A stretch of 54,261 nt of DNA from Actinomycetes bacterium. Its GTDB lineage: Bacteria; Actinomycetota; Actinomycetes; S36-B12; CAIYMF01. The stretch spans positions 1 through 54,261 of the forward strand of contig JAKOVT010000156.1 of the NCBI GenBank assembly GCA_029781935.1, read 5' to 3'. Under the pieces are notes generated by a model. The model searched no databases. It was not told where the DNA came from and worked only from the letters and a program-made list of their open reading frames with translations. The position numbers and the translations under genes are program-made. Shown here piece by piece: positions 5,279 to 54,261 of the stretch (position 1 is its first letter; every line of letters begins with the position of its first letter).

Positions 5279-6849
5279 GCGGCGGTGCGGGCTACGACGC
5301 CCGCTACCTCCCGCAGGGCTCGGGAGCCTTCCTGCCCGAGCCGTTGGCCGCCGCCCCGCTGTCCGAGCCCGCGCACGCGGGGCTGCTGCTCGCTCCGCCC
5401 ACGGGCGCGCCGGTCGACGAGGCGCTCCTGCCTCCCCTCCCCCCGCAGTTCGCCCCGCCGCCGCTCCCGACGACGCCGGTCGCGACACCGGCACCGGCAC
5501 CCGTGCGGCCCACCGTCCGCCGGGGCGTCGCCGCGCGCGGTCGCAGCAGCCGTCGCGGCGACATCGCCATCACCATCGGTGGCATCGGTCTGGGCATCTC
5601 GCTCGGCATCGCGGTGTACGCCGTCAAGGACGGCCTCGATCTTCCGGGGGGCAAGCTCCTCGCCGCGGGAACGGTCGCGGCGATGGTGGGCACGTACCTC
5701 TGCCTGGTCCTGCTCCTGCTCGTGTCGCGGATCCCGTGGCTCGAGCGCGAGATCGGGCACGACCGCATGGTCGCGCTGCATCGCACCGTGGCGCCGTACT
5801 CGATCTTCCTGATCCTTGCCCACGTGCTGCTCACGACCCTCAGCTACGCGCAGTCGCTCGAGCGGGGCTTCGTGGCCGAGCTGCTGCAGCTGGTCCTGCA
5901 CTCGGCCTGGATGATGCCGGCGGCCGCCGCCTTCGTGCTGATGATGTCGTTGGGCGTCATGTCCTACCGCCGGATCCGGCAGCGGATGAAGTACGAGACG
6001 TGGTGGGTCGCGCACCTCTACTTCTACATCGCCGTCGCGTTGTCCTTCGGACACCAGATCGCCAACGGACCCATGTTCGTGGCGCACCCCTACCAGCGCC
6101 TGTTCTGGACCGGCCTCTACATCGCCGTCGCGACCACCATCGTCGTGGCCCGCGTGATCATGCCGGTGTCCTTCTCCCGCAAGCACGACCTGCGCGTCGC
6201 CGCGGTCGTGCCCGAGAAGGACGGCGTCGTCTCGGTCTACGTCTCCGGTGTCGACCTCGACCTGCTCAAGGCGCGCGGCGGCCAGTTCTTCCAGTGGCGG
6301 TTCATGACCCGCGACTGGTGGTGGCAGGCGCACCCGTACTCGCTGTCGGCCTCGCCGAACGAGTCGTGGCTGCGCATCACCGTCAAGGACCTCGGCGACC
6401 ACTCGCGCAGCCTGCGCCGCATGAAGGTCGGCACGCGCGTCCTGGCCGAGGGCCCGTACGGCGTGTTCCATGCCGGCTCGCGCAGCACCGACACCGTGGC
6501 CGCGTTCGCCGCCGGCGTCGGCGTGACGCCGATCCGCGCGGTGCTCGACGACCTGCCCGACGGCACGTCGGTGACCCTCGTGTACCGGGTGGCGGAGCGG
6601 TCGACCGCGCCGCTGCACGAGGAGCTCGAGGCGCTGGTGTCCGAGCGCGGCTGGCGCATGCACTACCTGCAGGGCCCTCGCCGCCACCACCCGCTCACCG
6701 CGGAGTACCTCGAGCACCTGGTCCCCGGGATCGCCGCCTCCGACGTGTTCGTCTGCGGGCCGGACTCGTTCACGGAACGCATCGTCGAGGCGGCCGAGGC
6801 CGCTGGAGTGCCCCACGACCGCATCCACCACGAGGCGTTCGCCTTCTGA
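5275..6849 (+). CDS. Ferric-reductase-like transmembrane flavocytochrome (FAD/NAD(P)H-binding)
   Basis: Membrane oxidoreductase of 524 residues, predicted to move electrons from cytoplasmic NAD(P)H through FAD and heme across the membrane. The first ~90 residues are a Pro/Ala-rich cytoplasmic tail. About six membrane segments follow (about 96-300). They hold two His pairs that fit bis-heme ligation: H169/H183 and H247/H260, spaced 14 and 13 residues. The C-terminal half is a ferredoxin-reductase-type module with HPYSLSASP for FAD, GVGVTPIRAVL for the nucleotide and VFVCGP near the end. The GTG start overlaps the previous stop by 4 bp, indicating translational coupling to the Fn3/FMN protein. 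The exported FMN proteins alongside are its likely electron acceptors. It belongs to the wider FRE/NOX-like family; the natural terminal acceptor is unknown. Confidence 0.9.
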   Translation: MSGGAGYDARYLPQGSGAFLPEPLAAAPLSEPAHAGLLLAPPTGAPVDEALLPPLPPQFAPPPLPTTPVATPAPAPVRPTVRRGVAARGRSSRRGDIAITIGGIGLGISLGIAVYAVKDGLDLPGGKLLAAGTVAAMVGTYLCLVLLLLVSRIPWLEREIGHDRMVALHRTVAPYSIFLILAHVLLTTLSYAQSLERGFVAELLQLVLHSAWMMPAAAAFVLMMSLGVMSYRRIRQRMKYETWWVAHLYFYIAVALSFGHQIANGPMFVAHPYQRLFWTGLYIAVATTIVVARVIMPVSFSRKHDLRVAAVVPEKDGVVSVYVSGVDLDLLKARGGQFFQWRFMTRDWWWQAHPYSLSASPNESWLRITVKDLGDHSRSLRRMKVGTRVLAEGPYGVFHAGSRSTDTVAAFAAGVGVTPIRAVLDDLPDGTSVTLVYRVAERSTAPLHEELEALVSERGWRMHYLQGPRRHHPLTAEYLEHLVPGIAASDVFVCGPDSFTERIVEAAEAAGVPHDRIHHEAFAF

Positions 6850-11806: not shown

Positions 11807-12016
11807 GGGACTCCTCAGAGGACGGCGTGCTGGAGAACCGCGCGGCGCGCGATCGGCCGCGCCGGGCGGTGGAACGGGATCGGCCTGTCGGCCGGTCTGG
11901 TGTCGGCGAACGACGTGGGGTGCAGTACCGCGTGCGTGCCAGGACGATCGGGAGGCTACGACCGGCGGATGGAGCCCGCAAGGGTCCGTTTCTCGAGCCG
12001 CTTGTCGCGCCCGCTA

Positions 12017-12044
12017 CATTCACCATCCATCGGATGTTGGAATG
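12017..12044. promoter_or_regulatory. Imperfect inverted repeat, candidate TetR operator
   Basis: CATTC at 12017-12021 pairs with GAATG at 12040-12044, with inner CATCC/GGATG arms around ATC. The repeat is centred about 35 nt upstream of the tetR-type start codon, where an autoregulatory operator would lie. It is also upstream of the divergent ScyD/ScyE-like gene. This rests only on symmetry and position. Confidence 0.4.
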
Positions 12045-12065
12045 CGGCGACGCTAGGGTCGGGAC

Positions 12066-34843: not shown

Positions 34844-35512
34844 TCACGCATCCAGAGCGGGGTCGGAGGGGGCGAAGGGGAGCATGAGGACGGCACCGAC
34901 GAGGAAGCAGACGCCACCGGCGAAGGTGCCGACGTTGGCCCACCACAGGCTGACGAGCTCGCCCGACGCCAGCGTGAGCGCGCCGACCGCGGAGGCGCCG
35001 AAGAGGATCGACCCGATCATGTTCGCCCAGGCGATGACCCACGCGCGGTCGCGCACCCGGGTGAGGCGCCGCTGGTGCACGACCGGGGCGAGGGCGATCG
35101 CGCTGGAGACGAGGAACAGGATCGAGCCGATCGCGTCCGGGTTCCACACGCTCTGCGTGGAGTACGTCGCGCGGTCCGCCGCGTCGAGCGCCGCTCGCAG
35201 GGTCGTGATGTTGAACTCGACGGTGCCGACGAGCTGCACGGCCGCCGCGATCAGGTTCGCCCGGTCCGCCCGGTTCCAGGTGTGGAACGGTGCGGTCGCC
35301 TCGTCGTCGGGCGAACGCGAGGCCAGGGTCTGCAGCGACGCCGCGGTGGTGAAGAAGACCGACCCGACGAAGAACGTCCAGCCCGCGACGCTCGGGGACA
35401 GCGTCGTCGACAGGCTCAGCGGTACGCCGGCCATGAACAGCGCCGAGCCGATCGCGAAACCCCAACCGGCCCAGGTGATCCGGCGCTGCGAGAGCGACGG
35501 CGTACCGCTCAT
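34844..35512 (-). CDS. Multi-span membrane protein of unknown function
   Basis: Membrane protein of 222 residues with about six hydrophobic segments, beginning MSGTPSLSQRRITWAGWGFAIGS. A polar loop (SPDDEATAPFHTWNRADR) joins segments 2 and 3. I recognise it only as a type of conserved actinobacterial membrane protein of unknown function. ATG 35512 overlaps the stop of the upstream amidotransferase gene (ATGA), so the two are translationally coupled and probably work together. Confidence 0.8.
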   Translation of the reverse strand: MSGTPSLSQRRITWAGWGFAIGSALFMAGVPLSLSTTLSPSVAGWTFFVGSVFFTTAASLQTLASRSPDDEATAPFHTWNRADRANLIAAAVQLVGTVEFNITTLRAALDAADRATYSTQSVWNPDAIGSILFLVSSAIALAPVVHQRRLTRVRDRAWVIAWANMIGSILFGASAVGALTLASGELVSLWWANVGTFAGGVCFLVGAVLMLPFAPSDPALDA

Positions 35513-36345
35513 GCGCGGGCGTCCGGCACGAACTCGGCGTGGCGGTAGCCGCTGGCATCGAGGATCGCCACGGTCGACTCCGGCACCTCGCGGAACACGC
35601 CGGGCAGGTCGTTGAGCGGCTCCGAGACGACCACGTGCGCGTCGTCGCTGAACAGGCTCAGCCGCTCCTCGTCCGGGTACATCGCGCGCAGGTCCGCGAG
35701 GTCGGTGGAGTGGAACAGCGAGCGCGTGCGGCCCTGCGAGGAGTACCGGAACGCCCAGACGGTGCTGCCGTCCGTGACCGCGACCGAGCCCTGGAAGGGG
35801 AACGGCACGCCGTGCTGCTTCCCCACGCGTTCGACCTCCGCGAGAGCACGGGCCATGCCCGCGACGGGGTCGTCGCGCAGACCGAGCGTGAGCGCGAGGT
35901 GGAAGAGCACCTCCGAGTCCGTCGTACCGAGGATGTCCGGGTAGAGCTGCGGGTCGACCTGCAGGACGAGGTCGCGCTTGACGTCGCGGAAGCCCGAGAT
36001 CACGCCGTTGTGCATGAACAGCCAGCCGAGGTGCGCGAACGGGTGGCAGTTGGTCTGCTGGATCGGCGGACCGGCCGCCGCGCGCACGTGGCAGAAGAAG
36101 AGCGGCGAGGTCGTGGCCTCGCTGAGGGAGCGCAGGTTCCGGTCGTGCCAGGCCGGCTCGATGCTGCGGAACACGCCCGGATCGCCGCCGTCGACCGGGT
36201 ACCAGCCGAACCCGAATCCGTCGCCGTTCACCGTCTCCGCCCCGAGCGGCGAGTCGAGCGACTGCGCCACGATCGAGTGCACCGGATGCAGCAGCAGCTC
36301 GCTGGTGCGCAGCGGCGCCCCTCGGTACGCGAACCAACGGCACAT
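35509..36345 (-). CDS. Class II glutamine amidotransferase (YafJ/EgtC-like)
   Basis: N-terminal-nucleophile amidotransferase of 278 residues. It starts MCRWFAYRG, so Cys2 becomes the catalytic N-terminal nucleophile. Further signatures are NGDGFGFGWYP, CHVRAA, NCHPFAHLGWLFMHNGVI and TTDSEVLFHLAL, which bind glutamine and shape the active site. Stand-alone relatives include YafJ and EgtC, the gamma-glutamyl hydrolase of ergothioneine synthesis; no other egt gene is here. It is 75 bp downstream of the STAND ATPase pair and overlaps the next membrane protein gene, so it may share their transcript. Confidence 0.9.
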   Translation of the reverse strand: MCRWFAYRGAPLRTSELLLHPVHSIVAQSLDSPLGAETVNGDGFGFGWYPVDGGDPGVFRSIEPAWHDRNLRSLSEATTSPLFFCHVRAAAGPPIQQTNCHPFAHLGWLFMHNGVISGFRDVKRDLVLQVDPQLYPDILGTTDSEVLFHLALTLGLRDDPVAGMARALAEVERVGKQHGVPFPFQGSVAVTDGSTVWAFRYSSQGRTRSLFHSTDLADLRAMYPDEERLSLFSDDAHVVVSEPLNDLPGVFREVPESTVAILDASGYRHAEFVPDARA

Positions 36346-36420
36346 GGCGCCTCCCTCGCTCCCACCCTAGGCCGCACGGTGGGTCGAAGGGCCCCGGCCG
36401 ACCAGCCGACCGCAGCGGGG

Positions 36421-39066
36421 TTACGCCGAGGACGTGGCCGGGACGAGGCTGCGGGTCAACGCCTCCACGGCGTCGAGGTCGAGGTGGCGTCCGATCTGGC
36501 GGTTGCGCTCGAAGACCTCCTCGCCCGCCACCGCGCGCACCCCGTCGAAGATGGCCGCCATCACCGGCCGGAGACCGGGCCAGGGCACGATTCCGGCGCG
36601 GTCGCGCAGGGCGTGCGACGCGCCGACGAGCTGCGCCGCGACGTCGGGAGACTCGTTGCGGGCCAGGAGCACCGCGGCCAGCCCGTCGCACGCGAACGAG
36701 AGCGTCTCGGGGTTGCCGGCGAGGTGCCCGAAATGGGCGCCGCCCACGAGATCGCGCGCGGCGTCGTCGAGCGAGCCGCGGCCCAGGCGCGCGAAACCGC
36801 GTGCGACGAGCGTCTGGCCGCGCAGCATCGCGGAGTCGATCTCCTCGGCCTCCCGGAGGCCGCGATCGAGGGGTTCCTCGGCCTCGTCGAAGCGGCCGAG
36901 CTGGGCCAGGATCATCCCCGCGGTGCTCGAGCAGACCGAGGCCACGAACACGTTGCCCTGGGCGACGAGCTCCTTCCCCACGCGCAGGAACGTCTCGACC
37001 GAGCGCTCGTACTCCTCCGACAGCGGCGCCAGCGACGCGTCGAGGAACCCGCACAGCGCCAGTCCCTCCGCGTCGTCGAGGTCGGTGAAGCGTGCGGTCG
37101 CCTCGGCGAGGTGGCTCAACGCGGCGTCGTTGTCGCCCTGCTCCACGCCCGCGCCCGCGAGGGTCCACACCAGCCGCGCATGCGCCAGCGGTGAGAGCCG
37201 CTCGGGGTGGTCGATGGCGCGCTCGAGCCAGAGCCTGGCCTCCCGCGTGTGGTGGCGGGCCCACAGCCACAGCCACAGGTTGTAGCCGAGGTGCACGAGA
37301 GTGTCGGGGTCGCCGTCGGCCCACGCGCGCAGGCCGGCGATCCGGATGTTCGCGGCCTCGAGCTCGAGCCGCTCGAGCCAGCCCCCGTGCCCCTCCGTGG
37401 GCAGAGCGGCCTTCGCCCGCTCGGCCAGGTCGCGCACCCACGTCCGGTGAGCGAGGTCGATCTCCTCCGCGCGTCCCGACGCCTCGAGCTGCTCGCGCGC
37501 GTAGTCGCGCACGGTCTCGAGCATCGTGAACCGCGGCGCATCGACCACCGACGCATCGACGTCGAGCAGGCTGTGGTCGGCCAGCACCGCGAGCGACTCC
37601 AGCACGTCGCCGTCGATCCGTACGACGCTCTCCACTGCGGTGAGCGACATCCCGCCGACGAACGTCGACAGCTGCGCGAGCAGCTCGCGCTCCGGCGGAC
37701 GCAGCAGCTCGAAGCTCCACGCGAGGGTGGCCCGCATGGTCCGCTGCCGCTCGGGCAGGTCGGCGAATCGCGCCGCAGGCACGTCGAGCCTGCGGTCCAA
37801 CCGGTCCAGCAGCGCGGAGGGGGGCAGCAACCGACAGCGGGCCGCGGCCAGCTCGATCGCCAGCGGCAGGCCCTCGAGCCGCCGGCAGAGCGCCACCACG
37901 GCCGCCATCTCCTCGGAGTCCTCGGCGATCTCGAGGTCGGGTCGAGCCGCGCGCGCCCGGTCGAGGAAGAGCCGCACCGCGTCGGAGCGGCGTGCCTGCA
38001 GGTCGAGCGCGAGCGGGTCGCGGGTCGGCGACCCGAACCCGTCGTCGAGCACCGGCCCGAGGTCCAGCGGCCCGAGCGGGTAGTCGTACTCCGCCACCAG
38101 CCGGATCCGGGTTCGACTGGTGACCAGGACCGTGAGCCCGGGGCACGTGCCCACGAGCGCGGCGAGGTCGTCGGCGGCGTCGGTGACCTGCTCCGCGTTG
38201 TCGAGCACGAGCAGCAGCTCGCCGCGCTCGGCGAGCGCTTCCGCCACGGCGTCGACCGACGGCCGCTGCGTGTCCAGCCGGATCCCGAGGCGGCTGGCGA
38301 TGCTCGTGACGACCAGCCCGGGCTCGGGCACCTCCGACAGCGCGACGAGGACGACGCCGCCGGGGAAGTCGGGCTCGAGCCGATGCGCCGCCTCGAGCGC
38401 GAGGCGCGACTTCCCGATGCCGCCCATGCCGGTGATGGTCACGAGGCGTACGCCGTCGCGCCGGCACAGCTCCACCACGGCCTCGACGTCGCGGTCGCGG
38501 CCGACGAGCGAGCTGGTCGGCACGGGCAGCGACGTGATGCCGGCGACGTCGCCCGGTGCGGTGCGCAGGGGCCCGCTCGGCGTGCCGGTCTCCTGCGTGA
38601 CGGAGGCCGAGCCGAACGACTCGGCGAGCAGCGCGGCCAGGTCGTCGGACACCAGCCTGCCGAGCTCGTCGGCGTCGGAGTACAGACGCAGGCGCACACG
38701 CGGATCGTCGGCGACGTCGGCGAGCATCGCGGTCAGCTGCTCGTCGCGCTCGGGCGCCGGGTCGCGGACGTAGACCAGTTTCGGACGGTCGCCGCTGAGG
38801 CGGTACTCGTCCTCGAGGCCGGAGATGTCCATGCTGGGCGCGACCCAGCCGTAGCGCTGGGCGTAGATCGCCAGGAAGACGTGCGACTGCTCGAGGTAGG
38901 CGCGGTAGAGAGCGCGCGGCGGGTGCGGGCGGGCGCCCATCTCGAACATCACCGGCGCGAGACGCAACGACTCGATCGCCTGCTTCACGACGGCGCGCTC
39001 GGCGGCGAGCTCCCCGAGGGTCGAGCTCACGAACACGCGCAGCTTCTGGTCGGGCGTGAGGATCAT
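36421..39066 (-). CDS. STAND ATPase: DUF4062, NB-ARC-like NTPase and TPR-like repeats (A)
   Basis: Large signal-transduction ATPase of 881 residues. Residues about 9-155 are a DUF4062 domain opening LRVFVSSTLGELAAERAVV. The NTPase follows, with Walker A TGMGGIGKSR (K219), Walker B LLLVLDNAEQ, sensor-like VLVTSRTRIR, and GLPLAIELAAARCRLLPP, typical of the AfsR/LuxR-like branch. A winged-helix region comes next (about 420-500). The last ~350 residues are helical repeats of TPR type. There is no SARP or LuxR DNA-binding domain. In STAND proteins the repeats usually sense a partner and the N-terminal domain is the output; the target is unknown. Its ATG overlaps the stop of the upstream paralog (ATGA). 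Confidence 0.87.
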   Translation of the reverse strand: MILTPDQKLRVFVSSTLGELAAERAVVKQAIESLRLAPVMFEMGARPHPPRALYRAYLEQSHVFLAIYAQRYGWVAPSMDISGLEDEYRLSGDRPKLVYVRDPAPERDEQLTAMLADVADDPRVRLRLYSDADELGRLVSDDLAALLAESFGSASVTQETGTPSGPLRTAPGDVAGITSLPVPTSSLVGRDRDVEAVVELCRRDGVRLVTITGMGGIGKSRLALEAAHRLEPDFPGGVVLVALSEVPEPGLVVTSIASRLGIRLDTQRPSVDAVAEALAERGELLLVLDNAEQVTDAADDLAALVGTCPGLTVLVTSRTRIRLVAEYDYPLGPLDLGPVLDDGFGSPTRDPLALDLQARRSDAVRLFLDRARAARPDLEIAEDSEEMAAVVALCRRLEGLPLAIELAAARCRLLPPSALLDRLDRRLDVPAARFADLPERQRTMRATLAWSFELLRPPERELLAQLSTFVGGMSLTAVESVVRIDGDVLESLAVLADHSLLDVDASVVDAPRFTMLETVRDYAREQLEASGRAEEIDLAHRTWVRDLAERAKAALPTEGHGGWLERLELEAANIRIAGLRAWADGDPDTLVHLGYNLWLWLWARHHTREARLWLERAIDHPERLSPLAHARLVWTLAGAGVEQGDNDAALSHLAEATARFTDLDDAEGLALCGFLDASLAPLSEEYERSVETFLRVGKELVAQGNVFVASVCSSTAGMILAQLGRFDEAEEPLDRGLREAEEIDSAMLRGQTLVARGFARLGRGSLDDAARDLVGGAHFGHLAGNPETLSFACDGLAAVLLARNESPDVAAQLVGASHALRDRAGIVPWPGLRPVMAAIFDGVRAVAGEEVFERNRQIGRHLDLDAVEALTRSLVPATSSA

Positions 39067-41612
39067 CCCGGGATGCCCTGCCCCTCATGGCTTCTCGCGT
39101 GCTCCACGATCTGGTCGAGCGAGGCGCACGAGCCCTCGGCGTAGGCCTTCTCGAAGTCGTCCGGTGCGATCTCCTTCACGCGCGCGATCGTCTCGACATG
39201 GGCGCGCTCCTCGGTGAGCGGTCGGCGTACGTCGAGCGCAGCCCGCAGACCCGCGGCGCCGCCGTAGAGCCATCCCGCCTCGGCGGTGCGGCCGGCGAGA
39301 CCGAGAGCGCTCGCGAGGACGTCGACGGCGTCGACGAGGTCCCACGTGTCGTCGAGGGTGGCGTAGCCCTCGACGGCGTCGCGGGCGACGCGTGCAGCGC
39401 GGTCGAGCTCGCCGAGGCTGAGCAGCGCGGTGGCGGTGTTCATCCGCGCCCGCGCCAGCAGCTCGACCGAGCCCATCTGCTTCGAGAGCTCCTGCACCTC
39501 GTCGTAGAGCTCGATCGCCTCGGCGTCGGCACCGCGGTGGTGCGCAGCGACACCGAGGTTGTTGAGCACCGATGCTCGGCGCACGACGTCGTCGACACCG
39601 TCGAGGGCCTCGAGGCTCCTGCGCCACCAGCCCTCGGCCGACTCGACGTCGCCGCGGTCGAACGCGACGTTGCCGAGGAACCGAAGCGACGCCGAGATAG
39701 CAGCCGGATCCCCTTGCTCCTCACGGATCTCCAGCGACTCGCGGTACTGCCGCTCGGCGACGTCGTAGTCGCCGCGGGCGCGCGACAGGTAGGCGGCGCC
39801 GTTGAGCAAGTCGCTGCGCAGGTCGGTGCGCTGCCCGGCCGAGAGCGCGAGCGCGCGGTCGAGCCAGCGCCGGCCCTCGCTGAAGTGGCAGTGCGCGCGC
39901 CAGAACGGCCCGAGAGACGCCGCGAGGCGCAGGAGCGTCTCGACGTCGCGGCTGCGGTCGGCCCAGTCGAGCGCCACGCGGATGTCGTCGTGGTGGTGCT
40001 CGAGGATGCCGAGCCAGCCCTCGAGCTCGGCCGGCCCGTTGCGCGCCGCGCGCTCGACCACGCGCAGCACGCCCTGCGCATGACGGGAGTGGACGTCGTC
40101 GGCCTCCCCCGACTCGGCGAGGTGCTCGTGCGCGTACTCGCGGATCGTCGACAGCATCACGAAGCACGGCTCGCCCGTGACGGGCTCGGCGTCGGTCGTG
40201 CGCACGAGGCTCTTGCCCACGAGGCTGTCGAGGAGGTCGAGCACGTCGAGCGCCGGCTCGTCGATCACCGCCTCGGCGCCCCACAGCGTGAAGTCGCGGG
40301 GGAAGACGGCGAGGCGGCGGAACACGACCTGCTCCTCCTCGGAGAGCAGCGCATGGTCCCAGTCGAGCGTGGTGCGCAGCGCACGCTGGCGCTCGGGCAG
40401 GTCGAGCGGGCCGTCGCCGAGGACGTCGAGCGCGTGCGCGAGCCGGCCGAGCAGGGTGGTGGGCGGCAGCAGGCGGGTGCGCGCGGCGGCGAGCTCGAGC
40501 GAGAGCGGTACGCCGTCGAGCCGCCGGCAGATCTCCGCGGCCGCGGCCCGGTCGGCGTCGGACATCGCCCGGTGGGGGTTCGCGGCCGCAGCGCGCTCCA
40601 GGAACAGCTCGAGCGCAGCGCTGTGCGCGGGGTCGGTGTCGCCGGCCTCGGGCGTGCGCAGGGGAGGCAGCGGGTACTCCTGCTCACCGCGCACGCGCAG
40701 GACGCTGCGGCTGGTGACGAAGAACCGCACTCCCGGAGCGCTCGCGAGCAGGTCGAGCACGAGGGGCGCGGCGGTGGTGACGTTCTCGAAGCTGTCGAGC
40801 AGGATCAGCGCCTGCATGCTCGCGAGGTACGTCTTGAGGCTCTGCACCGGCAGCGCGCCGGCCGACTCCCGCACGCCGAGCGCGTGCGCCACGGTCGGGG
40901 CCACGAGCGCCGGGTCGCGCACGCCGGCGAGGTCGACGAACCAAGCGCCGTCGCGGAACTGCCCCTCGCAGCACGCCGCGACCTCGATCGCCAGGCGCGA
41001 CTTCCCGATGCCTCCCGGTCCGGTCAGGGTGACCAGCCGCGCCTCGCGGGTGATGAGCGAGCACACCTCCTCGACCTCGCGGTCGCGTCCCACGAGCCGG
41101 TGCCACGGCGCGGGGATCCGGGCCCGGGGTCCCGGTCGCGGTCCGCCCGTCTCGGCGGCGGGTGCGCTCGCCTGCTGCGGGATGCTCGGCGTACCGCCGG
41201 TGAACGCCTCCATGAGCACCATCGAGACGTCGTCGGCGACGAGGCGCGCGAGCTCGTCGGCGTCGGAGACCCGGCGGTAGGACGTGAGGTCGTCGGCCTG
41301 GATCCGCTTGAGCAGGAGGGCGAGGTGGTCGTCGCGCCGATCGCTGCCGGGCATCACGTAGACCAGGCGCGGTCGGCGTCCGGCGGCCAGGTAGTCGGCC
41401 TCGAGGCCCGAGACGCCGCGCTCGAGGTCGATCTCGCCGTAGCGGTCGCCGTAGACGCCCACGAAGATGTCGGCCTCGCGCACGTCGGGGACGTCGAGGT
41501 CGGCGCGCAACGGCGCCAGCGCCGCCCGCACCGCCTGCGCCTCGCGCGGCAGCTCGACGTCGTCGATCGACAGGTGCACGCGCACGGTGCGCACGCTCGT
41601 CCTGCTCGCCAC
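39063..41612 (-). CDS. STAND ATPase: diverged DUF4062, NB-ARC-like NTPase and TPR repeats (B)
   Basis: Paralog of the next gene, 849 residues. The N-terminal ~145 residues match the DUF4062 region of protein A in parts such as EADIFVGVYGDRYGEIDLERGVSGLEADYLAAGRRPRLVYV, but the VFVSST opening is replaced by VRVHLSIDD. The NTPase has Walker A TGPGGIGKSR (K204), Walker B ALILLDSFEN, FVTSRSVLR and GVPLSLELAAARTRLLPP. A winged-helix region follows (about 385-470), then clear TPR-like repeats including RFLGNVAFDRGDVESAEGWW and NNLGVAAHHRGADAEAIELY. GTG 41612 has GGAGG 5 nt upstream. It is the first gene of the minus-strand unit and is coupled to protein A by a 4-bp overlap. Confidence 0.87.
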   Translation of the reverse strand: MASRTSVRTVRVHLSIDDVELPREAQAVRAALAPLRADLDVPDVREADIFVGVYGDRYGEIDLERGVSGLEADYLAAGRRPRLVYVMPGSDRRDDHLALLLKRIQADDLTSYRRVSDADELARLVADDVSMVLMEAFTGGTPSIPQQASAPAAETGGPRPGPRARIPAPWHRLVGRDREVEEVCSLITREARLVTLTGPGGIGKSRLAIEVAACCEGQFRDGAWFVDLAGVRDPALVAPTVAHALGVRESAGALPVQSLKTYLASMQALILLDSFENVTTAAPLVLDLLASAPGVRFFVTSRSVLRVRGEQEYPLPPLRTPEAGDTDPAHSAALELFLERAAAANPHRAMSDADRAAAAEICRRLDGVPLSLELAAARTRLLPPTTLLGRLAHALDVLGDGPLDLPERQRALRTTLDWDHALLSEEEQVVFRRLAVFPRDFTLWGAEAVIDEPALDVLDLLDSLVGKSLVRTTDAEPVTGEPCFVMLSTIREYAHEHLAESGEADDVHSRHAQGVLRVVERAARNGPAELEGWLGILEHHHDDIRVALDWADRSRDVETLLRLAASLGPFWRAHCHFSEGRRWLDRALALSAGQRTDLRSDLLNGAAYLSRARGDYDVAERQYRESLEIREEQGDPAAISASLRFLGNVAFDRGDVESAEGWWRRSLEALDGVDDVVRRASVLNNLGVAAHHRGADAEAIELYDEVQELSKQMGSVELLARARMNTATALLSLGELDRAARVARDAVEGYATLDDTWDLVDAVDVLASALGLAGRTAEAGWLYGGAAGLRAALDVRRPLTEERAHVETIARVKEIAPDDFEKAYAEGSCASLDQIVEHARSHEGQGIPG

Positions 41613-42480: not shown

Positions 42481-44334
42481 TCAGGGGCCGGACAGGAGCT
42501 CGAGGAAGCGCGCTCCGTACTTCTCGGCCTTGACCGGGCCGATGCCGTTCACGGCGAGGAGCTGCTCGGGCGTCTGCGGTCGCGCGGCGACGAGCTCCCA
42601 GAGCGTGCGGTCGGGGAAGACGACGTACGGCGGGACTCCCTCCGCGTCGGCGAGGGCACGGCGCTCGGCGCGGAGCACCTCGAAGAGCGCGCGGTCGTCG
42701 TCGGTGACGTCGGCCGGGGCGCCTCCGGGCGACGACGCACGGGCCTTCTTCACGCGCGCGGGTGTCGCGGTCATCCGGCGCAGCATCACGGTCTCGCGAC
42801 CTTCGAGCACCGGACGCGCCTTCTCCGTGACGGTGAGGGCGCCCATGCGCGACGGGTCGGGCGAGAGCAGGCCGCGCGCGACGAGCTGGCGGATCACCGA
42901 CCGCCACTCCTGGTCCGACAGCTCGACGCCGACGCCGAACGTCGGCAGGTCGTGGTGGTTCCAGCTCTCGATCTTGGCCGTCTTCTTGCCGCGCAGGACG
43001 TCGATGATGTGACCGGCACCGAACCGCTGACCCGTGCGGATCACGGCCGACAGCGCCTTCTGCGTGTCGACCGTGGCGTCGTACAGCTCCGGCGGCGAGA
43101 GGCAGGTGTCGCAGTTGCCGCAGTCGCCCGACTCCTCGCCGAAGTACGCGAGCAGCACCCGACGGCGGCAGGTGGCGGCCTCGGCGTACCCGAGCATGGC
43201 GTCGAGCTTCATCTGCTCCACGCGCTGCTGCTCGACCGACGCGCCCCCGCCGCTGATGAACTGCGACTGCGCGACGACGTCGGCGAGGCCGTACGCCATC
43301 CACGCGACCGACGGCTCGCCATCGCGGCCGGCGCGTCCGGTCTCCTGGTAGTAGCCCTCGAGGCTCTTGGGGATGTCGACGTGGGCGACGAATCGCACGT
43401 CGGGCTTGTCGATGCCCATGCCGAACGCGATCGTCGCGCAGACGACCACGCCGTCCTCGCGACGGAACCGCTGCTGCGCGGCGCTGCGCTCGTCGCCGTG
43501 CATGCCGGCGTGGTAGGCGATCGCGTCGTAGCCGTTGTCGCGCAGCAGCTGCGCGAACTCCTCCGTGCGCTTGCGCGACTGGCAGTAGACGATGCCGGTC
43601 TGGCCGCGGAAGCCCTCGCCGTCGTCGCCCTGGGCGAGGAACCGCAGCAGCTGTGCGCGGACGTCGTTCTTCTCCTCGACGACGTACCGGATGTTCGGTC
43701 GGTCGAAGCTCGTGACGAACTCGCGGGCCTCGGTGAGCCCGAGCCGCTGGTGGATCTCGCGACGCGTGATGGCGTCGGCCGTGGCGGTGAGCGCGATCCG
43801 CGGTACGCCGGGGAAGCGCGAGGTGATCTCCGCGATCCGCAGGTACTCGGGGCGGAAGTCGTGTCCCCACGCGCTCACGCAGTGCGCCTCGTCGATCGCG
43901 AACAGCGCGATGCCCCCGCTGTCGGCTACCTCGTCGAGCGTGGTGAGGAAGCTCGGCGTGAGAAGGCGTTCCGGGGCGACGTACAGCAGGTCGAGCTCGC
44001 CGGAGCGCAGCGCCTGCCGGGTGCGGTAGACCTCCTCGTCCGACGACGTCGAGTTCCAGTACGACGCGCGCACGCCGAGCAGCCGGAGCGCCTCGACCTG
44101 GTCGTGCATCAGCGCGATGAGCGGCGACACCACGATCCCGACGCCCGGCCGCACCAGCGACGGCAGCTGGTAGCACAGCGACTTCCCGCCGCCGGTCGGC
44201 ATGAGCACGACCGAGTCCTCGCCCGCGATGGTCCGCTCGACGATCTCCGCCTGAGCCCCCCGGAACGACGAGAACCCGAACACCTCACGAAGCACCCGCA
44301 CCGCGTCGTCGCCCACGACCTCGACCCTAGCCAT
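42481..44334 (-). CDS. recQ: ATP-dependent DNA helicase RecQ
   Basis: 3'-5' DNA helicase of 617 residues with the full bacterial RecQ layout. Motif I is MPTGGGKSLCYQLP (K51), motif II is IDEAHCVSAWGHDFRPEY, and motif VI is YYQETGRAGRDG. The zinc-binding part of the RQC region is CRRRVLLAYFGE with CGNCDTC. A winged helix follows, and an HRDC domain closes the protein (WELVAARPQTPEQLLAVNGIG). It acts in recombination and replication-fork repair. ATG 44334 begins MARVEVVGDDAVRVLREVFG. Short related palindromes (44344-44368 and 44406-44441) lie just upstream. Confidence 0.94.
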   Translation of the reverse strand: MARVEVVGDDAVRVLREVFGFSSFRGAQAEIVERTIAGEDSVVLMPTGGGKSLCYQLPSLVRPGVGIVVSPLIALMHDQVEALRLLGVRASYWNSTSSDEEVYRTRQALRSGELDLLYVAPERLLTPSFLTTLDEVADSGGIALFAIDEAHCVSAWGHDFRPEYLRIAEITSRFPGVPRIALTATADAITRREIHQRLGLTEAREFVTSFDRPNIRYVVEEKNDVRAQLLRFLAQGDDGEGFRGQTGIVYCQSRKRTEEFAQLLRDNGYDAIAYHAGMHGDERSAAQQRFRREDGVVVCATIAFGMGIDKPDVRFVAHVDIPKSLEGYYQETGRAGRDGEPSVAWMAYGLADVVAQSQFISGGGASVEQQRVEQMKLDAMLGYAEAATCRRRVLLAYFGEESGDCGNCDTCLSPPELYDATVDTQKALSAVIRTGQRFGAGHIIDVLRGKKTAKIESWNHHDLPTFGVGVELSDQEWRSVIRQLVARGLLSPDPSRMGALTVTEKARPVLEGRETVMLRRMTATPARVKKARASSPGGAPADVTDDDRALFEVLRAERRALADAEGVPPYVVFPDRTLWELVAARPQTPEQLLAVNGIGPVKAEKYGARFLELLSGP

Positions 44335-44343
44335 CCGCTGTCC

Positions 44344-44368
44344 GGTGACGAGGAGGCACTCCAGTGCC
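44344..44368. repeat. Palindromic repeat family E, copy 1 (half diverged)
   Basis: The segment begins GGTGACGAGGAGGCACTCC and aligns with the left and middle parts of copy 2. Its own GGCACT/AGTGCC arms form a 6-bp hairpin. It ends 10 bp upstream of the recQ start codon. Confidence 0.5.
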
Positions 44369-44405
44369 ACCACACTCCCGCGAATCCACCCCTCCCCCGA
44401 TCCGC

Positions 44406-44441
44406 GGTGATGACGGGTCACTCCGGTGCCTCCTCATCACC
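44406..44441. repeat. Palindromic repeat family E, copy 2
   Basis: Ends GGTGATGA and TCATCACC pair, flanking an imperfect inner stem around CACTCCGGTG. It overlaps the stop codon of the AbiEi/DUF559-like gene and could act as its terminator. Confidence 0.6.
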
Positions 44442-45495
44442 GAGGAGCCGGGCGCGCGAGTCTCCGGAGCGACTCGAGAACCCGGGCGGAGTCCTGCGCC
44501 AGCGCCGCAACCGGCATCCGGAGCACGACGTACCCGAGCGCGGTGAGCTCCGCGTCGCGTTCCGCGTCGGCGGCCTGCACACGCGGGTCGAGGTGGTGCG
44601 GCCCGTCGACCTCGATCACGAGCCGCCGGCCGTCCGGCAGGACCACCAGAAGATCGACCCGACGCGGTCCGGCGGGCGTCTGGATCAGCACCTGCCGGCG
44701 CGGTACGCCGAGACCGGCCTGCTCCACGAGCCGCGCGACCTGCGCCTCGCGGAGCGACTCGGCCCCGGAACCGGCGTCCGCAAGTGCCACCAGCAGTGCG
44801 GCGCGGTGCCGCGTTCTCGGCCGACGGGACAGCACGTCCGCCACGTCGTCGGGCCGAGTCAGTCGCTGTTGGACGACGGCGATCACGAGCGCCGTCGCGA
44901 CTGCGGCCGACCGCTCCCAGGATGCGGCGTCGATGGCGGCGCGGGCCGGTGTGCTGCACGGCAGACCGCCGACGCCGCCGGCGAACCTGTCGGCGGTCGC
45001 CGCGCGGTGCACCGCCCCGTCAGCCCGGACCGAGAGGGGCTCGAGGGCCGAAGTACGGTGCGCCACGACACCGGCCAACCGGGGCGGCCGCCGTTCCGGA
45101 CCGACGAGCACGTGGATCCGGCGGTCCTCCCATCCGCGCAGACCGTGCCGTTCCAACGCGGTGCGACCGGCCAGCACCGCATCGTCGCCCGCGTTGATCA
45201 GCGCCACCGACATCTGCTGCGCTCGGGTCAGGGCACCGGTGCTGAGCGCGACGACCAGCGGACCGATCGTGCGCCAGCGCTGTGCTCGCACCTGCCCCCG
45301 CACATGTCTCGGCGTCACGCCGAGGGCCGCGAGCTGGTCGCGGCGTGCGACACCGAGCTGTCGCTCCGCCAGCTCGCGGAGCCCGGGTATGCGGTCGAGC
45401 GGTCGAGTGCGTCCAGACACGGCGGCAGGGTGGAGGGACGCGAGGGCCGCAGGCACCGCGGACCGTGCGCCGCTGGGGACGGGGCGCCGAGCCAT
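44437..45495 (-). CDS. AbiEi-like/DUF559 protein with endonuclease-like C-terminus
   Basis: Protein of 352 residues from the chosen ATG. The N-terminal region (RELAERQLGVARRDQLAALGVTPR, then VRAQRWRTIG) looks like the winged-helix part of AbiEi-type antitoxins. The C-terminal ~110 residues look like DUF559, a Vsr/PD-(D/E)XK relative: PRRVDLLVVLPDGRRLVIEVDGPHH, with the D and ExD pattern, then ELTALGYVVLRMPVAAL. Such fused proteins are common and often multicopy in actinobacteria, usually without an AbiEii toxin beside them, as here. The frame is open to GTG 45555. I prefer ATG 45495 because a palindrome (45540-45572) would then lie in the promoter region. Function unproven. Confidence 0.78.
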   Translation of the reverse strand: MARRPVPSGARSAVPAALASLHPAAVSGRTRPLDRIPGLRELAERQLGVARRDQLAALGVTPRHVRGQVRAQRWRTIGPLVVALSTGALTRAQQMSVALINAGDDAVLAGRTALERHGLRGWEDRRIHVLVGPERRPPRLAGVVAHRTSALEPLSVRADGAVHRAATADRFAGGVGGLPCSTPARAAIDAASWERSAAVATALVIAVVQQRLTRPDDVADVLSRRPRTRHRAALLVALADAGSGAESLREAQVARLVEQAGLGVPRRQVLIQTPAGPRRVDLLVVLPDGRRLVIEVDGPHHLDPRVQAADAERDAELTALGYVVLRMPVAALAQDSARVLESLRRLARPAPR

Positions 45496-45539
45496 CCGCG
45501 CCGTGGACAACGCACATGTCCCGCCAGCGCCGCGACCCC

Positions 45540-45572
45540 GGTGACGAGAGGGCACCTGGGTGCCTCGTCACC
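45540..45572. repeat. Palindromic repeat family E, copy 3 (candidate operator)
   Basis: GGTGACGAG (45540-45548) pairs perfectly with CTCGTCACC (45564-45572). Inner GCACC/GGTGC arms pair too, with a 3-nt bulge. It lies just upstream of the preferred start of the AbiEi/DUF559-like gene. AbiEi-type proteins are known to bind inverted repeats in their own promoters. Confidence 0.6.
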
Positions 45573-48723: not shown

Positions 48724-50379
48724 TCAGCCAGCGCTGCGCTGGAGCTTCTTCACGAGCTCCTTGCCGCCGACGCGGCGGAGCACCTCCGGGTCGCCGCACA
48801 CGACGAGCTGGTCGCGGGCGCGCGACATGCCGACGAGCAGCGTCTCGCGCGCGGTCGCGTCGTCGCGGAACCCGTCGACTGCCAGCACGATCGCCGGCCG
48901 CTCGAGGCCCTTGAACCCGGGCACCGTGGCGTAGAAGAACTGGTCGCCGTCCCAGAGCGTGTCCCAGTAGCCCTCGCGGCCGTGCGCGTCGACGAGCTCC
49001 ACCTGCACCGGGTGGCGGTGGTGGGTGGTGAGCAGCGCGAGATCCGACGGCGCCCAGCCCTCGCCGAGCAGACGCTCGGCCTCGTCGTCGGCGGCCGCCA
49101 CGGCGTCCTCCGACGAGCACGGCACGAACCGCACGGCCGGACCACCGCCGCCGAGGACGGTCATCGCCTCGGGCAGGAGCAGGTTCACCGCGGCCGAGAT
49201 GGGGCCGGAGTTGCGCAGGTTCTCGTCGAGCGTGAGCACCGGGAGGCCGAGGCCGTCGCCGCCCTCGCGGCCGAACACCTGCTGCGCGGCGTCGCTGAAC
49301 ACCGCGAGGTGCTGCGACGCCGGCGATCGGTACGCCGCGAGCAGCGGGGCCCACCACAGCGCCCCGAAGTCCTGCCCCTCGTCGACGACGATCGCGTCGT
49401 ACCGGTGCTCGTCGTCGAGATCGGCGGCGAGCACGGCCATCCGCTGCGGGATCTCGACGTCCCACTCGGGCTGCTGCGCCGCCTCCGACGCGACCGCGCC
49501 CCAGCGGTAGCCCAGGGCGTGGAAGGTGGTGACGTCGAGGCGAGACCGCAGGTCGTCGGGCCACGACGACACGAGCCGCTCGACCCACGACGTGAGCCCG
49601 CGAGAGTAGGCGACGAACGCGACGCGCTCCCCCGCGGCCGCCCAGCGTCGCGCCTGCTCGACTGCGAGGAACGTCTTGCCCGTGCCCGGTCCGCCGACCA
49701 CCTGGTAGCGCGGCAGCCGGCGGGCCATCGACAGGACGGTGTGCTGCTCCTGGGTGAGCCGTTCGACGAGCTCCTCGCGCACGAGCCGCAGCGCCGCGAC
49801 CTCCGCTTGCGAGTCGCCCCGGCCGGCGAGGATGTCGACGGCGGCCTCGACTCCTGCGGCGCCCGGCGGGGTCTGCGGCTGGTTCTCGAGCTTCCCCACG
49901 AGCAGGTCGTAGATCCTGCCCATCGCGTCGCGCTCCTCGCCCTTCGCGATCACGAGATAGCGCGGCAGCCCCGGTCCGAGGTCCTCGTCCTCCGGCTGCG
50001 CGGTGTCGGGCAGCGCGACGAGATGCACCATCCGCGGCGGCGGCCCGGGCCAGCGGCGGTGGTCCTTGAGGTAGCGACGTACCAGGTACTTCTCGCTCTT
50101 GGCCTGGTCGGCGAGGTCGATCGCGTGCCGGCCGAGAGCGCCGACCTGGACGTACTCGCCGCCCTCGAACCGGACCTGGCCACCCTTGACCTCGACCGTC
50201 GCGAAACCCTCCGGCATCAGCACGACGAGGTCGGTCTCCCAGTCGCCGTCGCGCCCGCAGAGGACCACGCCGTGCAGCAGGACATCGCACTCGCGCAGCT
50301 TCGCCCGGAACGCCTTCCAGACCCGCTCCTCCGCACCGTTCTTGAACCGCGGCCGCTCCGGATAGCACCGCCCCGCCAT
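48724..50379 (-). CDS. NERD-domain helicase (UvrD/Rep-like superfamily 1)
   Basis: Predicted DNA-processing enzyme of 551 residues. The N-terminal ~100 residues are a NERD nuclease-related domain (ERVWKAFRAKLRECDVLLHG, then WETDLVVLMPEGFATVEVKGG with the D and ExK pattern). A superfamily 1 helicase follows. Walker A is VVGGPGTGKTFLAVEQA (K235), motif II is VVDEGQDF, and LLVGMSRARDQLVVCG near the end is the C-terminal motif VI region. It probably unwinds and may cut DNA. ATG 50379 starts MAGRCYPERPRFKNGAEE. It is divergent from the NERD membrane protein across 139 bp, so two NERD proteins share one promoter region. Confidence 0.9.
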   Translation of the reverse strand: MAGRCYPERPRFKNGAEERVWKAFRAKLRECDVLLHGVVLCGRDGDWETDLVVLMPEGFATVEVKGGQVRFEGGEYVQVGALGRHAIDLADQAKSEKYLVRRYLKDHRRWPGPPPRMVHLVALPDTAQPEDEDLGPGLPRYLVIAKGEERDAMGRIYDLLVGKLENQPQTPPGAAGVEAAVDILAGRGDSQAEVAALRLVREELVERLTQEQHTVLSMARRLPRYQVVGGPGTGKTFLAVEQARRWAAAGERVAFVAYSRGLTSWVERLVSSWPDDLRSRLDVTTFHALGYRWGAVASEAAQQPEWDVEIPQRMAVLAADLDDEHRYDAIVVDEGQDFGALWWAPLLAAYRSPASQHLAVFSDAAQQVFGREGGDGLGLPVLTLDENLRNSGPISAAVNLLLPEAMTVLGGGGPAVRFVPCSSEDAVAAADDEAERLLGEGWAPSDLALLTTHHRHPVQVELVDAHGREGYWDTLWDGDQFFYATVPGFKGLERPAIVLAVDGFRDDATARETLLVGMSRARDQLVVCGDPEVLRRVGGKELVKKLQRSAG

Positions 50380-50518
50380 CGCACCCCCTGTGATCGCGTC
50401 CATCCTGGCGCACTGCACCGGCGGACTCGCGTTCGCTCGGCCGATCGCGCCGGGGGTGGTCGCGGATGGAAGCGCTCACTCGCTTCAGGAGCACGCCGTC
50501 CCGGTCGAGGGCACGAGA

Positions 50519-51787
50519 GTGGGGGATCTTCGGCTCGTCTCCGAACGCCGCGATGGCCGCGAGTTGGTTTTCGCGTTCCTGCCGTCGGGCCAGGCCGTGT
50601 GGGCGATGGATGCCGTCAGTCGTCAAGAGTGGTGGTACGCGCCGGAACTGGCACCCGCGGTTCTCCCCGACCTGCGGCGGGCACTTCTCGAGCGGCCCCC
50701 TGCGACGCAGGCGCCCGCGCCGATCGGCCCGGGGGCCGACCTGTCCGTGCATCGTCCAGGGCACGCCGTGCTCGCCGAGATCGAGGCCCAGCACCGGAGC
50801 GCCACGGCCTCGGTGATCGACGGGATGGCCGGCACACTCGAAGAGGGCATCGTGCATTGGTGCGTCGGGTACGTCGGTGAGGCCGAGGTCGGACGCGAGC
50901 TCGAACGGCTCGGGCCGTCGTGGCACGTGCTGCACGGCGTACCGGTCGGGACTCGCGGCTCCGACATCGACCACGTCGTCATCGGACCAGCCGGCGTGTT
51001 CACCATCAACACGAAGCACCACGCCGGTGCCAACGTCGACGTCAAGGGCGACGCCGTCTTCGTTGGTCGCGATCACCAGCACTACATCCGCAACGCGCGC
51101 CACGAGGCCAGTCGGGCTCGCTCCGCTGCCGCCGGGCTCTCCTGCTCGCCGCGCATCCATCCGCTCGTGGTCACCGTCGGGGCGAACCTGCGCATCAAGC
51201 AGGCGCCGGTCGACGTGGGCGTCCTCGACAGCCGGGCGCTCGTCGCGTGGCTGCTCGACCAGCGACCGTCGCTGAGCGACGCGCGGATCAGCGAGGTCTA
51301 CGAGCATCTCCGTTGGAGCGAGCGCTGGACCGAATCGCTGCCGCCAGCCGCCGCAGCGCCGTGGGTCGAAGGCTTCGCTCGTCAGATGGCGACCGAGCAG
51401 GCTGTGGCCCGGACAGTGCGCCGCCGACACCGCGGAGCCGCCGGAGGTCACGCGCCCTCGCATCCCACTCCTGCCGGCGGTCGCGCCTCGAACGGACCGG
51501 GGCGCGCACAGCGGAGGCGCCGAGGGGTTTCGGTCCGACAGGAGCTCGTGCGCCTCGCGGTGGGCATCCTCCTGTTCGCGTTCCTCGTCACCGCGGGCCC
51601 GACGATCCTCAACCGGATTGCGTCGGCCTTCACCCCCAAGGGGCCGGTGATGCCCAGCGCGACCGCGACCGCAGGAGCTGCCTGCACGACTCGAGGCGCC
51701 CAGGCCGTCAGTGCCTCCGGCGCACGCCTGGTGTGCGCCCCGGGTCCAGGCAGCAGCACCCTCGTCTGGCGCACTCCGAAGCCCTGA
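50519..51787 (+). CDS. NERD-domain membrane protein, nuclease-related
   Basis: Protein of 422 residues. An N-terminal module GRELVFAFLPSGQAVWAMD then WWY matches the short paralog at 45599-46198. A NERD domain follows (about 120-230: GEAEVGRELERLGPSW, DIDHVVIGPAGVFTINTKHH, then HYIRNARHEA), carrying the D and a T-K in place of the usual E/Q-x-K. One membrane segment lies at about 342-363. The C-terminal module CTTRGAQAVSASGARLVC is again shared with the paralog. GTG 50519 is preferred because the paralog alignment begins there and GAGG lies 8 nt upstream; the frame is open to 50390. The nuclease part should face the cytoplasm. Confidence 0.83.
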   Translation: MGDLRLVSERRDGRELVFAFLPSGQAVWAMDAVSRQEWWYAPELAPAVLPDLRRALLERPPATQAPAPIGPGADLSVHRPGHAVLAEIEAQHRSATASVIDGMAGTLEEGIVHWCVGYVGEAEVGRELERLGPSWHVLHGVPVGTRGSDIDHVVIGPAGVFTINTKHHAGANVDVKGDAVFVGRDHQHYIRNARHEASRARSAAAGLSCSPRIHPLVVTVGANLRIKQAPVDVGVLDSRALVAWLLDQRPSLSDARISEVYEHLRWSERWTESLPPAAAAPWVEGFARQMATEQAVARTVRRRHRGAAGGHAPSHPTPAGGRASNGPGRAQRRRRGVSVRQELVRLAVGILLFAFLVTAGPTILNRIASAFTPKGPVMPSATATAGAACTTRGAQAVSASGARLVCAPGPGSSTLVWRTPKP

Positions 51788-52440: not shown

Positions 52441-52870
52441 TGCTCCCACCCCATCGTGGGCTACGTCGGAGGGCACCCGTCGCTCAATGCTCGGCAACGT
52501 TCGACGCGACACGAAGCCGGAGCTCGCGGTCCGCACGCTCCTGCACAGTCGGGGTCTGCGCTATCGCGTCGACTACCCGTTGCCGATGGCTCCTCGACGA
52601 CGCGCGGACATCGCCTTCACGCGGCTCAAGGTCGCCGTCTACATCGACGGCTGCTTCTGGCATGGCTGCCCCGAGCACGCGACGTCGCCTTCCCAGAACA
52701 GCGACTACTGGTCGCCCAAGCTCGCCCGCAACAAGGCTCGTGATGTCGAGACCACACAGATGCTCACCAACGCCGGCTGGCTGGTCCTTCGCTTCTGGGA
52801 GCACGAGCAGCCGACCGTGATCGCCGACACCATCGAGTCCGCGGTGAGGTCAGCCGCCCCAAGCACGTGA
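52430..52870 (+). CDS. vsr: Very short patch repair endonuclease-like protein (Vsr)
   Basis: T:G mismatch endonuclease family protein of 146 residues. Family signatures are clear: RRSMLGNVRRDTKPELAVR, RADIAFTRLKVAVYIDGCFWHGC (catalytic Asp in RADI and the Cys/His zinc region), YWSPKLARNKARD and GWLVLRFWEHE. Vsr enzymes repair T:G mismatches made by deamination of 5-methylcytosine, and so usually sit beside a C5 cytosine methyltransferase; none is in the window. GTG 52430 lacks a clear ribosome-binding site; ATG 52406 is in frame. Confidence 0.9.
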   Translation: MPGRAPTPSWATSEGTRRSMLGNVRRDTKPELAVRTLLHSRGLRYRVDYPLPMAPRRRADIAFTRLKVAVYIDGCFWHGCPEHATSPSQNSDYWSPKLARNKARDVETTQMLTNAGWLVLRFWEHEQPTVIADTIESAVRSAAPST

Positions 52871-53220: not shown

Positions 53221-54261
53221 CTACGGCAAGCGGTGAGCCGCAACGGGGACCACCGTTCGGGAGCCGGCGTCGCGGAGGAGGACGGTCGCGAGGGTGGCGG
53301 TCCAGCCGGTGCGCCAGGTGTCGTCGACTAGCAGGACGGTCGCGTCGGGGACGGGGACGCCGGCACGCAGACGCAGCCGCGTGGAGAGCGCGGCCGCCCG
53401 CGAGGCTGGTGACAGGGACGGCGAGGGCCGTGGCCCGACCTGCTCGAGGCACTCCACGACCGGTAGGCCGAGCCGGGATCCGCAGACCGACGCCAGCGAC
53501 GTCACCAGCAGCGGCTTGCTCGAGCTCGGCACCGGCACGATGACCTCGGGGCGCTGCGGCAACGCCGGCACCCATCGGTCGAGCAGCGCCTCGAGCCCGG
53601 CCACCAGCCAGTCGGGCGCGGGAGCGTCCGGAGCCGACGGGCCGGTCACCGACGCCATCTCCTCCCAGCCGATGTCCTCGGCGAAGGCCAGCGCCCGCCC
53701 GGTCATGCCCGCCCACTCCGGCCGGATCTTGCCCTTCCACTCCGCACGCCCCGACGCAGCGGCCAGCCCCGCCGGGAACATCGCGCGCGGCTCGAGCTCG
53801 ACGTCGAGACCGCGCACGAACGCGCGCGCCGAGTCCGCAGAGTCCCGCGGCACCGACGCCGACAACCCGCCGGGCAGCGAGCCGGTGCACACCGAGCAGC
53901 GGCCGCACCTCTCCCCCGGCGCGACCGGGTCGTCGAGCGCTCGGCGCAGCAGCACCTCGAGGCAGGCGTGACCGCGGGCGTACTCCCGCATGAGGTCGGC
54001 CTCCGCGCGACGGGCGGCGACGATGCCGGCGTACTTCGCGGAGTCGTACGACCACGGCCGACCCGTCGCGTACCAGCCGGACTCGGCGCGGGTCACGGCG
54101 CCGTCGACCGCGAGGATCTTGAGCAGCAGCTCGAGGCGGCCTCGGCGTATCCCCGTCGCCGTCTCGATCTGCGGTCCGGTCATCACGCCGTCGGCCGTCT
54201 CCTCCGACGCACGTCCGAGCACCCCCAGCACGCGATCAGCCTCGTCGGGATCGGGCACCGA
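53221..54261 (-). CDS. RecQ-related helicase C-terminus with phosphoribosyltransferase-like tail, partial
   Basis: The frame is open to the right edge, so the N-terminal part is missing; about 347 residues are visible. The first visible part has a winged-helix-like segment (GPQIETATGIRRGRLELLLKIL), then a RecQ-type zinc region (YARGHACLEVLLRRAL, then CGRCSVCTG). The last ~150 residues resemble a phosphoribosyltransferase fold, with EVIVPVPSSSKPLL and the PRPP-loop-like VLLVDDTWRTGWT. The motor domain presumably lies beyond the edge. Proteins with this layout occur in actinobacteria as RecQ-like helicases. The role of the tail is unknown; it may bind a nucleotide. Confidence 0.82.
   Translation of the reverse strand, partial: SVPDPDEADRVLGVLGRASEETADGVMTGPQIETATGIRRGRLELLLKILAVDGAVTRAESGWYATGRPWSYDSAKYAGIVAARRAEADLMREYARGHACLEVLLRRALDDPVAPGERCGRCSVCTGSLPGGLSASVPRDSADSARAFVRGLDVELEPRAMFPAGLAAASGRAEWKGKIRPEWAGMTGRALAFAEDIGWEEMASVTGPSAPDAPAPDWLVAGLEALLDRWVPALPQRPEVIVPVPSSSKPLLVTSLASVCGSRLGLPVVECLEQVGPRPSPSLSPASRAAALSTRLRLRAGVPVPDATVLLVDDTWRTGWTATLATVLLRDAGSRTVVPVAAHRLP

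Follow-up and report, generated by a model that had tools for sequence, protein, structure and literature searches.

The Avs, bNACHT and CARD-NLR proteins join a signal transduction ATPase with numerous domains (STAND) to an effector and to a repeat or sensor region, and a similar plan is seen in the products of two adjacent genes, called A and B here, on contig JAKOVT010000156.1 of an Actinomycetes bacterium (assembly GCA_029781935.1), whose 54,261 nucleotides were analysed as a whole and are referred to as the window. DUF4062, the family to which the N-terminal domain of A belongs, is a TIR-like domain that hydrolyses nicotinamide adenine dinucleotide (NAD+) and serves as the executioner of the antiphage protein Swarozyc (KpSwz; PMC13174449, a 2026 preprint); residue E97 of KpSwz and E1008 of human TEP1 are required, and activation accompanies oligomerisation (PMC13174449). 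TEP1, NWD1, NWD2 and NPHP3 resemble the two proteins in having DUF4062 adjoining a STAND ATPase (PMC13174449), but theirs is a NACHT domain, with WD40 repeats in several, instead of NB-ARC and TPR, and no eroded partner gene has been described for them. A split between sensing and executing across two nucleotide-binding leucine-rich repeat receptors (NLRs) is known from plants and, in other form, from animals. In plants, the catalytic Glu is missing from the sensor RRS1, whose BB loop is short, and CHS3 and CSA1 work together as a hetero-oligomer in which CSA1 alone provides NADase sites and the P-loops of both partners are required (PMC11298796). Our literature search turned up no account of paired bacterial NLRs of which one has a crippled effector. 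We propose, at a probability of roughly 0.47, that B and A constitute such a receptor pair of the NLR type in bacteria, where A would be the NADase executor and B a catalytically impaired, dedicated partner acting as sensor or restrainer.

An earlier note on this stretch of DNA had described two large STAND proteins overlapping by ATGA, and the reading frames bear this out. Both genes lie on the minus strand and are paralogues (40% identity over 572 amino acids); B (39063..41612, 849 amino acids), with a GTG start preceded by the Shine-Dalgarno-like GGAGGGG, is transcribed first, followed by A (36421..39066, 881 amino acids), and the stop of B and the start of A share the ATGA at 39063..39066. 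Translational coupling at this overlap would yield the two proteins together. The N-terminus of A is a complete TIR-like domain (residues 10-152, 38611..39039, minus strand), as judged by the DUF4062 profile, the match to KpSwz, an AlphaFold2 model and structural re-alignment with VIA; it scores 65.9 bits against PF13271 over positions 1-80 of 82, whereas B reaches 21.2 bits over positions 49-82 only, below the cut-off of 24.7. The corresponding region of B (residues 7-137, 41202..41594, minus strand) is by alignment and AlphaFold2 model a TIR-like domain without betaB, BB loop and alphaB, with VIA matches to DNPH1 and TIR domains, and the stretch PVMFEMGARPHPPRALYRAYLEQS is missing from the alignment. 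A keeps the VFVSST opening and B the later part of the domain, as the earlier note had it, and its statement that B has lost the opening needs refining: the first strand is degenerate but retained (VRVHLSID versus LRVFVSST in A), and an internal stretch is gone. In KpSwz the corresponding region supplies the autoinhibitory dimer face and a loop by which the active site is blocked (PMC13174449).

The position of the catalytic residue was obtained with a profile built from 16 DUF4062 domains and compared with the PDB sequences of KpSwz (10wc, 11cq, 11cv) and TEP1 (11gz). This profile covers the whole domain in KpSwz chain 10wc_A (E 1.7e-26) and also recovers TEP1 (E 2e-7); full-length A gave no match among the sequences of solved structures at E 0.001. 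The cryo-electron microscopy chain 10wc carries the E97A substitution, and its Ala (SFTEKAFDYA), which by our own count is residue 97 provided that the chain starts at residue 14, aligns with the second Glu of SxxExE(Y/F). This is E87 in A (motif SGLEDEY, codon at 38806..38808, minus strand), the predicted catalytic Glu, and an Asp, D73, in B (motif SGLEADY, codon at 41394..41396, minus strand). The Glu is retained in A and in all 18 other canonical relatives examined, and the A-type proteins examined keep both a VFVSST-type opening and the betaB-alphaB stretch. By these alignments A is a member of the DUF4062 TIR-like family with the catalytic Glu, and B is a truncated relative of that family rather than an active member.

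With Swarozyc, A shares the N-terminal domain family and the position of the catalytic Glu, and the profile of the A N-terminal domain matches the DUF4062 part of KpSwz only. The two systems differ in that KpSwz (a PDB chain of 326 amino acids) has a C-terminal helix-turn-helix/winged portal-binding domain and has no ATPase (PMC13174449), whereas A and B, at about 850-880 amino acids, are paired and carry NB-ARC and TPRs, with no helix-turn-helix or winged domain after DUF4062 in A. Short Swarozyc-like DUF4062 proteins (frames of 364-386 amino acids) with a motif very close to that of KpSwz were seen in other Actinomycetes (L102, L104).

The AlphaFold2 models of the two N-terminal domains, which rest on alignments of three rows and have mean predicted local distance difference test scores of 69.7 (A) and 80.7 (B), repeat the difference between the proteins: the model of A runs betaA-alphaA-betaB-alphaB-betaC-alphaC-betaD-alphaD-betaE-alphaE, and that of B has the same elements minus betaB and alphaB. 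In VIA re-alignment the best match of both was the nucleoside deoxyribosyltransferase-like DNPH1 (for A, Z 13.4 and 2.6 A over 126 residues; for B, Z 12.6 and 2.4 A over 113 residues), with TIR domains ranking near it (RRS1 at 12.8 for A, an RPS4/RRS1 entry at 10.7 for B) and flavodoxin-like and other Rossmann-like folds ranking shortly after. Foldseek alone was non-discriminating, placing flavodoxins, Ras and PurE at comparable E-values. The structures of KpSwz and TEP1 did not appear among the matches listed, which has no bearing on their similarity to the models.

Whether the two genes are conserved as a unit, a check named in the earlier note, was followed in 148 relatives, 394 members of the class (scored by the best two matches per genome) and 396 members of the phylum, samples that overlap. 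Among the matches listed, the B-A pair occurs in four genomes, always with B before A and the same 4-nucleotide overlap: that of the window (G000), one of the same genus (G009, locus L024), a metagenome-assembled genome (MAG) of another genus in the same family (G011, locus L025, JAFIHG010000025.1), these three being Nanopelagicales, and one from another family of the class outside that order (G187, locus L090). The gene trees of A and B are congruent, G187 branching first, then G011, then the window with G009, and the flanks of the pair differ between G000/G009, G011 and G187; SbcC, taken as a yardstick for a transfer of the pair to G187, had no match in that genome. B-type N-termini, defined as matches that begin no later than B residue 10, were found only in tandem pairs, and A-type genes also stand alone at 10 loci (G152, G236, G285, G379, G187:C111, G536, G782 twice, G851 and G774), both among the matches listed. 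All four B proteins open with V(H/R/Q)(L/V)S(I/L)(D/E) instead of VFVSST and have lost the betaB-BB loop-alphaB stretch (PVMFExGARPHPPRxLYRxYLEQS), and since this erosion is common to all B orthologues it is not an isolated accident. The catalytic position is Asp in three of the four (window, G009 and G011). Only A would thus be catalytically competent, in three of four pairs by the catalytic residue and in all four by loss of the BB region.

The unit appears to be limited to these two genes. The earlier note had correctly placed a class II amidotransferase gene (36345-35509, minus strand; GATase_4, distantly EgtC-like) and a coupled membrane protein gene (35512-34844, minus strand; YrhK-like) downstream, and had supposed that both might belong to the system. 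A four-gene system of this kind has in its favour the common strand, the 75-nucleotide gap after A and the ATGA coupling of the last two genes, but G011 and G187 have no such amidotransferase gene, that of G009 lies on another contig, and different genes follow A at the three other pair loci. We therefore confine the unit to B-A and rejected the two downstream genes as members; the occurrence of the pair without them largely refutes the four-gene reading, which we consider barely credible.

Adjacent, coupled and homologous genes could also result from a recent tandem duplication followed by sub-functionalisation of B, the more so as tandem duplications are known in the family (G366_1/2; G156/G179). 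In a tree of the ATPase-TPR part only, however, B groups with the pair of G156/G179 (support 98/98) and A is placed elsewhere, and a constraint holding A and B together was rejected (approximately unbiased test, p-AU 0.0004; log-likelihood 69 units worse). On this tree A and B are not recent duplicates but long-separated lineages that are now inherited side by side, and we regard the duplication as very improbable. G156 and G179 each hold a DUF4062-STAND pair with a 4-nucleotide overlap beside dnaX (identified by eye). Both proteins are complete in G156, whereas in its congener G179 the second gene has lost the betaB-alphaB stretch and the SxxExE surroundings next to an intact partner (L092 6278-11463). 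Because this second gene was eroded independently, one-sided erosion of the effector domain in bacterial tandem pairs seems to have occurred at least twice, in the B-A clade and in G179. In G366 two complete DUF4062-NB-ARC-TPR copies stand beside rpoBC, and the congener G285 has one (rpoBC also identified by eye).

Behind their N-terminal domains the two proteins share a common core. A carries an NB-ARC/STAND ATPase (37747..38520, minus strand; GMGGIGKS, LLVLDN, TSR, GLPL) and B an NB-ARC-like one (40353..41120, minus strand; GPGGIGKS, LILLDS, TSR, GVPL), the ends of both domains being approximate, and each protein shows the Walker A, Walker B, sensor and GxP motifs. The NB-ARC profile reaches 32.8 bits in A, above its cut-off, and is sub-threshold in B, where weak matches to P-loop ATPase models were obtained; TPR matches are weak in A and strong in B (residues 603-760, 39333..39806, minus strand; TPR_12 at 68.8 bits).

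From what the sequences hold (the pair, its order and co-inheritance, the domains, and a catalytic residue kept in A and lost in B) we infer the NADase activity of A, the hetero-oligomer, the role of B, the phage trigger and the immune role of the pair. At rest, B may hold A inactive or serve as sensor; a trigger, probably derived from a phage, would lead to nucleotide exchange by the ATPases and to a mixed A/B oligomer in which the TIR-like domains of A could meet and hydrolyse NAD+, so that the infected cell would stop growing or die. The TIR-like domain of B, presumably unable to form a normal active site, might sense, restrain or seed this complex. A sensor and an executor were what the earlier note had read into the asymmetry of the two proteins; the intact catalytic domain of A and the crippled one of B, together with the antiphage NADase activity since shown for DUF4062 (PMC13174449), strengthen that suggestion as regards the division of labour and leave the immune role conditional. 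By analogy, the plant pairs RRS1-RPS4 and CHS3-CSA1 are a close functional parallel, as each consists of two NLRs encoded by linked genes; one partner has a catalytic TIR domain, and the other, in the case of RRS1, has no catalytic Glu and only a short BB loop. They have true TIR domains and leucine-rich repeats, are eukaryotic and are encoded head-to-head, and no integrated decoy was seen in B, so that the relation is one of resemblance rather than membership. A more far-reaching suggestion, which we offer tentatively and would sooner doubt than accept, is that B-A is the bacterial counterpart of the plant TIR-NLR pairs, in which a dead TIR-like NLR without BB loop (B) would control a NADase NLR (A) by joining it in a mixed oligomer, with one-sided erosion having arisen at least twice. 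If so, the division of labour in paired NLRs would appear to arise repeatedly, the locus would offer a small system for studying the control of an active TIR domain by a dead one, and the newly recognised DUF4062 NADases would extend to an NB-ARC/TPR architecture whose plan is close to that of human TEP1 and NWD1.

Several observations weigh against an immune receptor pair. In PADLOC, A matches no model, which sets it apart from Avs, bNACHT and CARD-NLR proteins, and B has only a generic TPR match and a marginal one to mad8. The B protein of G187 retains Glu at the catalytic position. The estimated contamination of the window genome is 8.7%; several window genes around the pair are common to G009 of the same genus. 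PADLOC matches near the pairs are mainly helicases and one NERD-UvrD protein, with no clear defence island, and canonical relatives occupy stable chromosomal places, by rpoBC in G285/G366 and by dnaX in G156/G179 (genes identified by eye), which favours a resident over a mobile role. Finally, B is frameshifted in the assemblies of G009 (L024, about 12003-12054) and G011 (L025, about 5685-5760), through assembly error or real loss, and A is intact in both.

These frameshifts would fit an explanation in which A acts alone and B is a decaying neighbour, its eroded N-terminus and its frameshifts being steps of loss, as would the frequency of solitary A-type genes. Ratios of non-synonymous to synonymous substitution (dN/dS, simple NG86-type counts of the window against the three other pairs, with the frameshifted pieces of B compared apart) are 0.23-0.31 for the TIR-like domain of A, its most constrained part, and 0.39-0.46 for the remainder; in B they are 0.39-0.60 for the N-terminus, which hence evolves faster than that of A, and 0.21-0.47 for the remainder. 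The N-terminal remnant of B is under looser constraint, yet its dN/dS is below 1, as it is throughout the gene, and is not neutral. Moreover, four genomes from two orders have the same erosion fixed, their remnants being 56-75% identical, the ATPase motifs of B and the 4-nucleotide coupling are kept, the B copies of the window and G187 are intact, and each frameshift is a single break in a MAG contig, that of G009 at a coverage of 1.35. On balance we find simple decay of B improbable.

A more serious alternative, though still an unlikely one in our view, is that A and B are STAND regulators of metabolism, stress or development like AfsR (COG3903-type) of the Actinomycetota, using their TIR-like domains for nucleotide sensing or oligomerisation and having no role in immunity. 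The ATPase-TPR core is common to both groups, and most members of its family are joined to BTAD, cyclase or kinase domains; single relatives lie in core places by rpoBC (L093, L095) or among metabolic genes (L094, L096, L138-L142), and the four pair loci are without a clear defence island. In place of BTAD, cyclase or kinase, however, the proteins described here have a DUF4062 effector end, and profile searches found no DNA-binding or cyclase domain in either. The described DUF4062 proteins are NADases (PMC13174449), the catalytic Glu of A is kept throughout, and the NADase-type domain is the most conserved part of A, all of which speaks against such a regulatory role. The DUF4062-NB-ARC-TPR genes by rpoBC (L093 6710-11954; L095 6407-9016) belong to two species of one genus, the gene being single in one and duplicated in the other.

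As for the surroundings, RecQ, AbiEi/DUF559 and nuclease genes do lie near the pair as the earlier note had stated, but the accessory or defence region that it read from them is poorly supported, the genes in question being scattered helicases and nucleases and the relatives standing by rpoBC or dnaX. Likewise, a search for the pair in defence islands, which the note had proposed, gave only scattered helicase and nuclease genes and no clear island at the four pair loci: NERD, Vsr and RecQ-like genes alone near the pairs in Nanopelagicales, and no clear defence genes around the G187, G156, G179 and G366 loci. Carriage by phages or plasmids was considered and rejected, as the A-like matches listed in plasmid, phage and viral-contig records cover the ATPase-TPR part only; PHROG 15411 matches the N-terminal domain of A alone.

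In the three Nanopelagicales genomes, genes for NERD-UvrD helicase, NERD and Vsr proteins are found no farther than about 15 kb from the pair (window 48724-50403, 50768-51787 and 52487-52870; L024 17482-18879; L025 15707-17344), and the NERD genes so placed are both of those in G000, the sole one of G009 and one of four in G011. This linkage should be taken as a lead only, given that common descent accounts for part of the locus in G000 and G009 and that G187 is without the linkage. A true RecQ gene (42481-44421) is present in the window, and a gene for an AbiEi_4 plus DUF559 protein is conserved on the pair's contig within the genus (window 44437-45555; L136 6738-7703). In each of the two genomes of the genus, the contig that carries the pair also encodes a second RecQ-like helicase, with a PsyrT-type PADLOC match (window 53221-54231; L136 2988-5114), the two homologues being 62% identical.

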